Source: Thiohalobacter thiocyanaticus (GTDB lineage Bacteria > Pseudomonadota > Gammaproteobacteria > Thiohalobacterales > Thiohalobacteraceae). From it: 64,000 bases of DNA. The stretch is taken from positions 2,964,501-3,028,500 of the forward strand of contig NZ_AP018052.1 of NCBI RefSeq assembly GCF_002356355.1, in the 5' to 3' direction. The notes under the pieces are model-generated. The model saw nothing but the letters and a program-made list of their open reading frames with translations, ran no database searches and had not been told where the DNA came from. A program made the position numbers and the translations under genes. Positions 2,022 to 30,870 of the stretch are shown here, piece after piece; the first letter of the stretch is position 1, and each line of letters starts with the position of its first letter.

Positions 2022-5000
2022 CGGCTCATCCCCGCAGGCGCGGGGAACACGGCGAATCAGTCAGATATCAGCGCTAACACGGCGGTTCATCCCCGCAGGC
2101 GCGGGGAACACAGCGGGAACCCGGCGGCGGTCGTCACGCCACCCGGTTCATCCCCGCAGGCGCGGGGAACACAGACGGCTTAAAGACTTCTGCGGCGCCA
2201 TGGCCGGTTCATCCCCGCAGGCGCGGGGAACACTCATCGTCCCGCAGCAGGATGGGAAGGACATATGGTTCATCCCCGCAGGCGCGGGGAACACGTCACA
2301 AGCGTCGGCTCTGCTGTGTCTCCTTCCGGTTCATCCCCGCAGGCGCGGGGAACACGGGAGGTGAGGAATGAGCGTGGAACGCGCGGACGGTTCATCCCCG
2401 CAGGCGCGGGGAACACCAGGGGTAGGTGACAGTGGCTGATATTGCCAGCGGTTCATCCCCGCAGGCGCGGGGAACACCGGGCGGCACGAGTTCATACCGC
2501 TGCATGGGCACGGTTCATCCCCGCAGGCGCGGGGAACACGATTATGCCCCGCAACTCTCAGAATCAGAGACCGGTTCATCCCCGCAGGCGCGGGGAACAC
2601 TTCGCCGCCGCTGTTTCTGTGCGGTGTCCTCACGGTTCATCCCCGCAGGCGCGGGGAACACGGCTGCCACCGACCTCTCTACCGTAAAGGGGCACGGTTC
2701 ATCCCCGCAGGCGCGGGGAACACGGTGTGCTGAAGATCTCCGGATCCTGCTGGGCGCGGTTCATCCCCGCAGGCGCGGGGAACACATGCCCGACATAGCC
2801 CGCGTCGGGGAAGGTTTCGGTTCATCCCCGCAGGCGCGGGGAACACGGCGAGCTTACCCAACGGATTGAGAATATCCGCGGTTCATCCCCGCAGGCGCGG
2901 GGAACACACCACAATATAATATTTCACATTTTCCATTTTCGGTTCATCCCCGCAGGCGCGGGGAACACGGAAAAATCGTATTGGAGCGCGGCGGCACTTC
3001 CGGTTCATCCCCGCAGGCGCGGGGAACACGCTGATCGTCGCGCTGTTGCCTGCCGGGTGTTCGGTTCATCCCCGCAGGCGCGGGGAACACGAATTGTGGG
3101 CCTTCAAGGACGGGCACCAGGTCGGTTCATCCCCGCAGGCGCGGGGAACACTCTTGACGTACCTCTTTTAACCAGTCTGCTCTACGGTTCATCCCCGCAG
3201 GCGCGGGGAACACCCGAAAAAAGGTGTATCTTGGAAAGCCGAAGACGGTTCATCCCCGCAGGCGCGGGGAACACATACGGCGGTGCTGCGCGCGCCGCAC
3301 GTGACACCGGTTCATCCCCGCAGGCGCGGGGAACACGCCCCGCTGGTCATCCCCACCCAGGTCGGCGCCGGTTCATCCCCGCAGGCGCGGGGAACACTCC
3401 GGGTCGCCCACAGAGTCCACAGGACGGACCGGTTCATCCCCGCAGGCGCGGGGAACACCATCTGCTGTGTTTCCATCAGTGCCATTATGTCGGTTCATCC
3501 CCGCAGGCGCGGGGAACACGCGCTTCTCGCGGGCGATCTGCTCCAGGTTGGCGGTTCATCCCCGCAGGCGCGGGGAACACCATTCATCAATGGAATGGCG
3601 CTCGCATCCGATCGGTTCATCCCCGCAGGCGCGGGGAACACGATCCCCGATACCACGCCGGCGATTCCGTCGCCGGTTCATCCCCGCAGGCGCGGGGAAC
3701 ACGAGAGGCCAATGGCCCGGTGTGGGAGTTTGTGCGGTTCATCCCCGCAGGCGCGGGGAACACCGCCCCGGTGCGGCGCAGCCAGTCGCGGTAGTCGGTT
3801 CATCCCCGCAGGCGCGGGGAACACTCGGCGGGGCCCTGGCCCTTGCTGTCGGCCGCCGGTTCATCCCCGCAGGCGCGGGGAACACATACTGAGACGCCCG
3901 GTAATGCGCCCTGCCGGCGGTTCATCCCCGCAGGCGCGGGGAACACTGGGCCGTGGACACCACCACGGGGATCATCACCGGTTCATCCCCGCAGGCGCGG
4001 GGAACACAGCTTCGAGCTGGAGGGCGTCGACTCGACAAACGGTTCATCCCCGCAGGCGCGGGGAACACTGCGCTTGTTCCGTAGATTTTCAAGCCCATGC
4101 CGGTTCATCCCCGCAGGCGCGGGGAACACGCCAGGTCAACAGTCACATAGCGGTTGGAGCCCGGTTCATCCCCGCAGGCGCGGGGAACACAAGGCCGCTA
4201 GTCCTGGCGTCGGTTAGAGTGGCGGTTCATCCCCGCAGGCGCGGGGAACACTTGAGCATTGCGTCAGCCCACATGTATCGTGCCGGTTCATCCCCGCAGG
4301 CGCGGGGAACACCGCTCCTGCTGCTCTCCTGCCCAATCGCGGTCCGGTTCATCCCCGCAGGCGCGGGGAACACGGTCTGTGGCGGGCCTACAATACACAG
4401 AGTCCCGGTTCATCCCCGCAGGCGCGGGGAACACGCATTGGCAAGATCCCGAAGTTGGTCAGCAGTGCGGTTCATCCCCGCAGGCGCGGGGAACACGCGG
4501 AGAGCCTGCATGCGGAGCTGATCGACTCTCGGTTCATCCCCGCAGGCGCGGGGAACACCGTTCGAGCATGTCAGTCATGCCCTAAAATTCCGGTTCATCC
4601 CCGCAGGCGCGGGGAACACGCCGAGCGCAATCCTGGTGGAAACATCGGCGGTGGTTCATCCCCGCAGGCGCGGGGAACACTCCTGTCCGGTGCCACTGCC
4701 TGTAGCGCCGACCGGTTCATCCCCGCAGGCGCGGGGAACACCTGCGACAGCCACGAAGTCAGCATGCCGACCACGGTTCATCCCCGCAGGCGCGGGGAAC
4801 ACGGAGTCGGATCGTTGGGATCGCCGGTGCCGATCGGTTCATCCCCGCAGGCGCGGGGAACACGGACAACGTGTTTTACCGGGGCGCCAATGGCGTCGGT
4901 TCATCCCCGCAGGCGCGGGGAACACTGGCCAGTAATTGCCGATTGATCCCGACATGCCGGTTCATCCCCGCAGGCGCGGGGAACACACCCTGATCATCGC

Positions 5001-7122
5001 TGTTGCCGCTGTCGCTGGCGGTTCATCCCCGCAGGCGCGGGGAACACGGGCAACAGGCAGAGCGAATCCCGAAACCGGGCGGTTCATCCCCGCAGGCGCG
5101 GGGAACACGGGCAACAGGCAGAGCGAATCCCGAAACCGGGCGGTTCATCCCCGCAGGCGCGGGGAACACAAGGCCGCCGGCCTGTGGGCGGGCAAATTCG
5201 CCGGTTCATCCCCGCAGGCGCGGGGAACACCTGACAATTGCCAGTCAACGGGCGCCCGGCACCGGTTCATCCCCGCAGGCGCGGGGAACACATCGGCCCC
5301 GAGTATCTGCGCGGTAAAAAAGGCGGTTCATCCCCGCAGGCGCGGGGAACACTCGGTAGTGTCCTGACACCACTTGTGGGCATCCGGTTCATCCCCGCAG
5401 GCGCGGGGAACACCAGGGCGGTAGCACGCCTGAAGACATGCAACGCGGTTCATCCCCGCAGGCGCGGGGAACACTCGAGATATGACACCTTTCCGGCTGG
5501 GGTCATCGGTTCATCCCCGCAGGCGCGGGGAACACAGTGGGTATAGGCGTCTCTCCCGCATGAGCCGCGGTTCATCCCCGCAGGCGCGGGGAACACTCTA
5601 CCAGCACTGCATCGAAATCGGCGCAGACCGGTTCATCCCCGCAGGCGCGGGGAACACTACAGCTACACAATTCCCGGCGACGCGCTCTACGGTTCATCCC
5701 CGCAGGCGCGGGGAACACCGCTGACGCTGCTGGCGTTTGTACTCATCCAGCGGTTCATCCCCGCAGGCGCGGGGAACACTCTTAGGATCACGCTTGAGTC
5801 CCATCAGTCAACGGTTCATCCCCGCAGGCGCGGGGAACACAATCGGCGGCGAGCTTGGCTCGGCGCTTATATCGGTTCATCCCCGCAGGCGCGGGGAACA
5901 CTCCGCTGCTTCCAGGTGTGATACTGAATATGGCGGTTCATCCCCGCAGGCGCGGGGAACACCGGTGGTATTTACTCAGTAGCTCCTGAGCGTCCGGTTC
6001 ATCCCCGCAGGCGCGGGGAACACGCGAAAGTGGCGTAATAGGCATAGTGGCGAACCGGTTCATCCCCGCAGGCGCGGGGAACACACCCGGACCTGTACCA
6101 CATCGAAAAGTATTTACGGTTCATCCCCGCAGGCGCGGGGAACACTCAGCAATGCCAGTGCGGAGGATTTCTACCTGCGGTTCATCCCCGCAGGCGCGGG
6201 GAACACATCGGTCGGGATGCTGCGGCCGTCCGTCCAGGCGGTTCATCCCCGCAGGCGCGGGGAACACGTTCTGCCAGCCCTCATCCCCATTCTGGTTGGC
6301 GGTTCATCCCCGCAGGCGCGGGGAACACAGCGTGGCCTGGCGGTGGTCGATCTCCAGCTTCGGTTCATCCCCGCAGGCGCGGGGAACACGCGCTGCAGGA
6401 AGTTCTGGGCACGGGTGGTGCGCGGTTCATCCCCGCAGGCGCGGGGAACACAGTTCACCTCCCGCCGGGGCGGATGCTGATCACGGTTCATCCCCGCAGG
6501 CGCGGGGAACACCCGATGCTGTTGGCGTTATCGGCACACCAAATCGGTTCATCCCCGCAGGCGCGGGGAACACACCTGCCCTCCTGATCTGATTGACGTG
6601 AACATCGGTTCATCCCCGCAGGCGCGGGGAACACGCGGCCAGGCGGATTCGCGCGCGCCCGTGCACCGGTTCATCCCCGCAGGCGCGGGGAACACTTCGA
6701 TGCGGCCGAGTTCGGCGGCAAGATCAACGGTTCATCCCCGCAGGCGCGGGGAACACTATCAGACCGACACCGGCTCCACCGGCAATGTCGGTTCATCCCC
6801 GCAGGCGCGGGGAACACAAAACACAACAAACAATTGCGGCTGTCACCACCGGTTCATCCCCGCAGGCGCGGGGAACACGGGGAGGTAGCATGAAAGACCT
6901 GATGGCATTGCGGTTCATCCCCGCAGGCGCGGGGAACACTGGATGATGGGTTGGCCGCTCGGAACGACAGCCGGTTCATCCCCGCAGGCGCGGGGAACAC
7001 TGAGCGCGGTCTGTACGTCCGCCGAAAGTTACCGGTTCATCCCCGCAGGCGCGGGGAACACCCAACAGGCAGCACCGCATCTGTCGTAAAGGTCGGTTCA
7101 TCCCCGCAGGCGCGGGGAACAC
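2022..7122 (-). CRISPR. Type I-E CRISPR array, 84 repeats and 83 spacers
   Basis: The 29-base repeat, read on the plus strand, starts CGGTTCATCCCCGC and ends GGCGCGGGGAACAC. On the minus strand it starts GTGTTCCCCGCG and ends GGGGATGAACCG, the classic I-E orientation with a CCCCGC/GCGGGG hairpin and a predicted 8-base crRNA handle AUGAACCG after Cas6e cleavage. By position, 74 spacers are 32 bases and nine are 33. Repeats are nearly invariant: the leader-distal copy at 2022 has one change (C for T at its fourth plus-strand base), and copies at 2266 and 4652 have T instead of C as first plus-strand base. Transcription runs from the leader at 7123-7214 towards 2022. The spacer at 5048-5079 is repeated exactly at 5109-5140. 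Confidence 0.99.
5048..5140 (-). repeat. Duplicated spacer: two identical neighbouring 32-base spacers
   Basis: Spacers 5048-5079 and 5109-5140 are identical (both begin GGGCAACAGGCAG on the plus strand) and are separated by one normal repeat. A repeat-spacer unit duplication by slippage or recombination explains this better than two independent acquisitions of the same protospacer. Confidence 0.97.
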
Positions 7123-30385: not shown

Positions 30386-30480
30386 CCCACCTCGTCTGTT
30401 GTCTGCAGTGACCATCCGGTTCATTGATGCGGCCGGTTAAAAAACGGCCAGCGGCTCGGCCGCTGACCGGTGATGTGTTT

Positions 30481-30796
30481 GGCTGGGGCGGCAGGATTAC
30501 TCGGCCTGCGGCCTCGCCCCTGCGGGGCCGGCTCCGCTGCGCTGCGCCGTTCTTTCGCGCTGCGCGCTCAAGTCGAACCTTGAGGTTCTCATCCTGCCGC
30601 CCGGTGTTTCTATAGATTCGCTGCGCGAATCGTTGTTTGGCTGGGGCGGCAGGATTACTCGGCCTGCGGCCTCGCCCCTGCGGGGCCGGCTCCGCTGCGC
30701 TGCGCCGTTCTTTCGCGCTGCGCGCTCAAGTCGAACCTTGAGGTTCTCATCCTGCCGCCCGGTGTTTCTATAGATTCGCTGCGCGAATCGTTGTTT
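30481..30796 (-). repeat. Two perfect 158-bp tandem repeats containing the tRNA-Gln 3' end
   Basis: Units at 30481-30638 and 30639-30796 are identical over all 158 bases. Each starts (plus strand) with GGCTGGGGCGGCAGGATT, the complement of the tRNA-Gln 3' end; the third occurrence of this sequence is the real tRNA gene. Each unit also holds a GATTCG-CTGCG-CGAATC hairpin near its far end and a second GGCGGCAGGAT in inverse orientation. On the minus strand an Arg-rich reading frame runs through both units. The rest of the prs-tRNA gap (30386-30480) holds no gene. Confidence 0.97.
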
Positions 30797-30870
30797 GGCT
30801 GGGGCGGCAGGATTCGAACCTGCGCATGCTGATACCAAAAACCAGTGCCTTACCGCTTGGCGACGCCCCA
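30796..30870 (-). tRNA. tRNA-Gln (TTG)
   Basis: 75 bases with encoded CCA. The acceptor stem TGGGGCG/CGCCCCA pairs completely. The anticodon stem is CTGGT/ATCAG around loop TTTTGGT, giving anticodon TTG. The T-arm has GTTCGAATC. It resembles E. coli glnU/glnW. The 5' end is at 30870. It sits between ispE and prs, its common place in gammaproteobacteria, and its 3' end is repeated in the tandem units just downstream. Confidence 0.98.

Follow-up and report, generated by a model that had tools for sequence, protein, structure and literature searches.

The first description of tRNA-linked repeats (TLRs) dates from 1978 (Egan and Landy 1978; see also Rudd 1999, both cited in PMC8144298). They are recognized by a 3' end of 18-19 bp that matches that of the upstream tRNA or rRNA exactly (PMC8144298). 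Escherichia coli K-12 carries 22 TLRs at ten loci, in both tRNA and rRNA operons, and no function was known for them as of 2021 (PMC8144298). One member is RtT (Rfam RF00391), represented by RttR of the E. coli tyrT operon; a starvation phenotype was first reported for E. coli rtT and later withdrawn (PMC8144298). Here we describe a pair of such elements behind a tRNA-Gln gene of Thiohalobacter thiocyanaticus, and compare them with their relatives in other bacteria.

The tRNA-Gln(UUG) array and its identity

The window, a stretch of 64,000 nucleotides, contains a tRNA-Gln(UUG) gene on the minus strand at 30796-30870 (anticodon TTG, CCA encoded), found by ARAGORN and supported by a match of 58.9 bits to Rfam RF00005. 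Directly 3' of this host tRNA and on the same strand lie two 158-bp units identical in sequence, the tRNA-proximal unit 1 at 30638-30795 and the distal unit 2 at 30480-30637, with borders that we set in register with the CCA ends. Tandem Repeats Finder places the array at 30476-30814 with a period of 158, 2.1 copies, a 100% match and a score of 678. Together with ARAGORN, it bears out the arrangement proposed in the preliminary description, in which two perfect tandem units directly follow tRNA-Gln and each includes the end of the tRNA: a copy of the last 19 nt, CCA included, terminates each unit. These 19 nt and the sequence AACA make up a 23-bp direct repeat, AATCCTGCCGCCCCAGCCAAACA, which occurs on the minus strand at 30792-30814, where it overlaps the 3' end of the tRNA gene, and again at 30634-30656 and 30476-30498.

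A scan for terminators finds an intrinsic terminator-like hairpin of 11 bp with TTTTTT at 30445-30469 (minus strand), closing the array, and no terminator-like site on the minus strand between tRNA-Gln and the array. Because such a hairpin follows the array and none precedes it, the array would lie in the tRNA-Gln trailer, within the same transcription unit. The neighboring gene products, read by eye from the sequence, are ispE and prs. Since the genome is assembled as one contig of 3,233,441 bases, a collapsed or invented repeat is less likely, as judged at the level of the assembly, reads apart. Elsewhere in the window, at 2327-7061, Tandem Repeats Finder reports a long CRISPR-like array with the repeat CGGTTCATCCCCGCAGGCGCGGGGAACAC at a spacing of ~61 bp, which may be type I-E-like.

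Each unit gives a full-length match to RF00391 of 52.4 bits (cut-off 45, E 2.5e-07; 30638-30771 and 30480-30613), so that a chance resemblance to RtT can be dismissed. A covariance model built from 27 aligned relatives of the window element, termed R1, scores 97.5 bits against each unit (30638-30763 in unit 1); the tRNAs of these relatives are Gln (TTG, CTG), Tyr, Ser, Val, Glu, SeC (by eye) and Lys. In the reciprocal search, R1 recovers the annotated RttR of E. coli K-12 at 78.0 bits (E 2.9e-17). From these two results it follows that the window element is RtT, that is, a tRNA-linked repeat, and the likeness to the tyrT repeats that had been noticed from the sequence is one of homology. The array is an additional example of a kind already known.

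The window units have in common with RttR the core GGATGAGAACC / GGTTCGA / GAGTAATCC, the tandem arrangement with a tRNA 3' end closing each unit, and the ATG at which an Arg-rich open reading frame begins. They differ in that the host is tRNA-Gln(UUG) rather than tRNA-Tyr, that there are two identical units of 158 bp, and that the sequence of the outer stem, P1, tracks tRNA-Gln. Such an equivalent at tRNA-Gln had been singled out as being of interest; it is a true equivalent but a less unusual one than was thought, as Ser and Gln are the commonest hosts in our sample and E. coli TLRs are known at several tRNA and rRNA operons. Like the E. coli TLRs, which occur in one to several copies, the window units end in 18-19 bp of the upstream tRNA and lie on its strand, in its putative transcription unit, whereas no report for the window lineage was found in the literature examined. 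The rrn-linked TLRs RrA, RrB and RrF have module X in common with the window units (R1 positions 34-106, 36.7 bits), but their host is 5S rRNA, and R1 has no match in their P1/P2 arm region. At E. coli K-12 rrnB (L456 288-356), R1 matches X, without the P1 and P2 arms, between both rrnB terminators.

The host-matched outer stem and module X

Read on the tRNA strand, each unit consists of the arm GGGCGGCAGGAT, GA, GAACC-TCAA-GGTTC, GA, the module X ending in GAGT, and AATCCTGCCGCCCCAGCCA. The predicted fold of the unit has a free energy of -77.9 kcal/mol (z = -5.16). The 5' arm of unit 1 (30749-30760, minus strand) is the complement of the T-stem and acceptor 3' strand of tRNA-Gln and is predicted to pair over 12 bp with 30644-30655; that of unit 2 lies 158 bp downstream at 30591-30602. 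On this model, P1 would be a false T/acceptor stem of 12 bp ending in CCA, formed by the 5' arm and the tRNA-derived 3' arm. Within it, the P2 hairpin GAACC-TCAA-GGTTC (30733-30746 in unit 1), with GA on either side, is kept across the family. Between GGAT and GAACC stand two bases, in most cases GA, TT or TC; each of these could pair with the GA that follows GGTTC, in sheared, wobble or Watson-Crick fashion, respectively. When a collection was scanned with a broad pattern, matches with a tRNA upstream numbered 21 of 34 for GA, 10 of 39 for TT and 6 of 67 for TC, against 2 of 108 for all others, so the pattern yields mostly noise unless the two free bases are one of these three pairs.

The 5' arm follows the host. 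Of its 8 variable positions, 5.27 pair with the host tRNA of the same element across 78 genome-by-tRNA cases, and 4.02 ± 0.12 when the hosts are permuted (0 of 10,000 permutations), in a test with crude arm detection that ignores kinship. Arm and host tRNA match at 10 of 10 positions in many elements, and in 72 of 89 the 3' arm and the host tRNA are identical over 10 nt. Substitutions that keep the 5' arm paired point in the right direction, with an enrichment that is not significant. In P1, P2, P5 and P6, two-sided changes are seen in 19 of the 22 pairs, and covariation in these stems lies far above both shuffled and slid controls. The covariation score is 0.357 (0.141 when shuffled; 0 of 500) for an alignment fitted to the model and 0.322 (0.145; 0 of 500) for an unfitted one. 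The arm and covariation tests support a paired structure; by themselves they do not tell selection apart from a host end copied at insertion.

Module X, a variable hairpin module, sits exactly between GGTTCGA and ATCC, where the T-loop of a tRNA would run on. In unit 1 it occupies 30657-30730 (minus strand), with hairpins P3-P6 between the T-loop GGTTCGA and AATCC, and in unit 2 30499-30572. Its sequence varies freely among relatives. The idea that X tracks the identity of the tRNA is ruled out, with a likeness of 0.672 at the same tRNA in other genomes and 0.678 at other tRNAs. Within one genome the likeness between two tRNAs reaches 0.95; in genome G025, X is 95% identical at tRNA-Gln and tRNA-Val, and the arms match each host. 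The nearest X lies in the same genome in only 7 of 41 cases from multi-copy genomes. Mismatches in the X stems have no strand bias (24 G.T, 26 A.C) and thus give no proof of selection on X at the RNA level; at the closing pair of P5 the counts are 24 G.T and 4 A.C.

X also occurs in a second configuration. In genomes G001, G003, G005, G006 and G286, it lies within an apparent second copy of the tRNA 5' of the intact gene, composed of the tRNA 5' body, GGTTCGA, X, ATCC and part of the acceptor strand. The 5' body is 100% identical in the three cases measured. In the minus-strand reading of locus L073, near 3882, a second GGTTCGA follows a tRNA-Gln-like body just upstream of another tRNA-Gln 5' end, and this copy resembles a shortened element of the upstream type from which most of X has gone. 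In the window genome, weak X-like matches are found away from tRNAs at two loci, L410 and L412 (G000 C1:339579-339696 and 2735269-2735394), the latter within an inverted CATTCCCGCGAAGGCGGG-type repeat. A kinship of X with dispersed palindromic repeats is possible.

Distribution and copy number

R1 detects elements in 150 of 370 Gammaproteobacteria (~40%) and in 123 of 273 genera, which is a lower bound, as few candidates per genome were scored. A set of 120 elements from 61 gammaproteobacterial genomes was chosen by a pattern that includes GGTT[CT][GA]A and ATCC. A tRNA lies upstream on the same strand in 105 of them, within 150 nt in 86, the hosts being tRNA-Ser (45), Gln (41), Tyr (8), Arg (6), Glu (4) and Val (1). 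Going by record titles, the core GGATGAGAACC-N-GGTTCGA also stands beside tRNAs in Bacteroidetes, Sphingobacterium, Roseivirga, Gastranaerophilales, Akkermansiaceae, Gemmatimonadetes, Lentisphaerae and Alphaproteobacteria, and 31 of the 38 distinct core matches in later scans have a tRNA upstream. Scans with the exact pattern, which are insensitive, find it in 3 of 247 genomes from the phylum of a Roseivirga genome and 10 of 299 from the phylum of the window. Because exact matches are rare in these broad samples, presence beyond Gammaproteobacteria is either sporadic or under-detected. Judged by sequence matches, the elements are far more widespread than the E. coli examples first known.

Copy number, which the preliminary description had proposed to compare between strains, varies. 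At the tRNA-Gln(UUG) site in the genus of the window there are two units in the window itself, one downstream unit in G001 and none in G002, whose empty site retains a single copy of the 23-bp repeat, as a deletion between the repeats would also leave. E. coli genomes that match the RtT of tyrT do so at 1-9 places (median 2). The same query has no match in 746 of 5426 E. coli genomes, an absence at the sensitivity of a single sequence variant.

The window unit has no match among 50,697 phage records; among plasmids it matches five records labelled E. coli and, over a short stretch, one from Arsenophonus. A contig classed as viral (L159, IMGVR_UViG_3300027542_000775) carries an RtT-like element behind tRNA-Ala, in what may be bacterial flank. 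Elsewhere in the window genome, a region of ~13 kb (L457 1378-1987 and 14305-14567; G000 C1 about 1384.3-1397.4 kb) lies between truncated 3' ends of tRNA-Arg, and behind each of these ends stand a terminator and a TLR. By eye its reading frames are efflux- and transport-like, and the region resembles an island with the TLR as part of its attachment region.

Persistence and origin of the elements

The reading that we consider probable is that these tandem RtT/TLR copies in the putative tRNA-Gln(UUG) trailer encode a host-matched folded RNA that persists mainly as a parasite of the tRNA gene. By its sequence, each unit encodes a folded RNA with P1 as a false acceptor/T-stem on the outside: the 3' strand of this stem repeats the end of the host tRNA, CCA included, and the 5' strand is a complement specific to that host. 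The trailer would be transcribed together with tRNA-Gln, and the repeated tRNA ends would be cut like the tRNA's own, freeing RtT RNAs. An element may enter at the T-loop/3' end, duplicating the tRNA end and leaving the tRNA intact, after which the tandem array could expand, contract and undergo conversion. We favor this history of parasitic insertion and conversion because of the empty site, the upstream forms, and the 95% identity of X in G025 with arms that follow each host. Deletion between direct repeats, or gene conversion among old elements, is a possible alternative history, and the empty site in G002 fits a clean deletion equally well, which counts against the parasitic reading.

Also counting against it is the in vitro binding of Hfq and CsrA by Rr-type TLRs of E. 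coli (PMC8144298), an argument for host use in some cases. A host-beneficial small RNA or sponge, freed during tRNA processing, a role suggested for the rrn-linked TLRs of E. coli, would account for a conserved structure with covariation. RrA, RrB and RrF, the TLRs with this binding activity, are conserved in Enterobacterales (PMC8144298), Northern blots show homologs of RtT, and Arrc21 occurs widely among Pasteurellaceae (PMC4986893). Such a role nevertheless sits poorly with the patchy presence of the elements (150 of 370 Gammaproteobacteria, absence from a congener, no detection in 746 of 5426 E. coli) and with the freely varying X, and the starvation phenotype claimed for E. coli rtT was withdrawn (PMC8144298). 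tRNA-type TLRs moreover score <0.01 for CsrA (PMC8144298), and the CGNAG hairpins of the window unit have GCA loops, not GGA. On the last two grounds we reject a CsrA sponge as the general role, and regard a host-beneficial RNA here as doubtful.

A simple neutral duplication in tandem, which leaves the second RtT unit of the array without a role of its own, agrees with the one unit in one congener and none in another, and with the identity of the two units, as expected after recent duplication or conversion. This would explain the copy number, but not the conserved structure of the unit, its arms or its wide recurrence, and we think it unlikely as an account of the locus. A role at the level of DNA, with the repeated tRNA 3' ends serving as spare or decoy attachment sites or arising as by-products of site-specific integration, is improbable. 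The direct repeats do span the tRNA 3' end, and the ~13-kb region has a TLR after each of its truncated tRNA-Arg ends, but the repeat is short, with 19 nt of tRNA, the 50,697 phage records contain no match to the unit, and an attachment site has no need of a host-specific 5' arm, P2 or covarying hairpins.

The preliminary description had also pointed to an Arg-rich minus-strand frame and a protamine-like peptide. A frame of 31 aa is indeed present (30655-30750, minus strand), beginning at the ATG of the GGATGAG core, the position at which tpr, its annotated counterpart, starts in K-12. The frame is not conserved in the family: 26 of the 91 elements carry the core ATG, their frames part ways beyond P2, and their lengths range from 4 codons up to the 53 that the examined stretch allows. 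A protamine-like peptide gene is therefore highly improbable; we reject a peptide function and regard the frame, which is probably not a gene, as incidental to the RNA sequence.

Taking the parasitic reading further, we tentatively propose that TLRs are tiny mobile elements found across bacteria, with the near-universal tRNA T-loop GGTTCGA^ATCC as their site. Wherever they settle, they might reconstruct a tRNA-like acceptor/T stem out of the host tRNA, with an inverted 5' arm when downstream and a complete 5' body of the tRNA when upstream, and could thereby be carried by many tRNA genes that are left intact. A link to REP/RAYT mobilization is conceivable. In the literature examined, mostly open-access and later than the originals of 1978-1999, we found no account of a false acceptor stem matched to the host, of X placed at the T-loop, of the upstream form or of so wide a spread. 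If each element does form a false acceptor stem matched to its host, then its processing and its movement become testable. Recurrence at the tRNAs of several phyla makes what had been a curiosity of E. coli a general companion of tRNA genes in bacteria.
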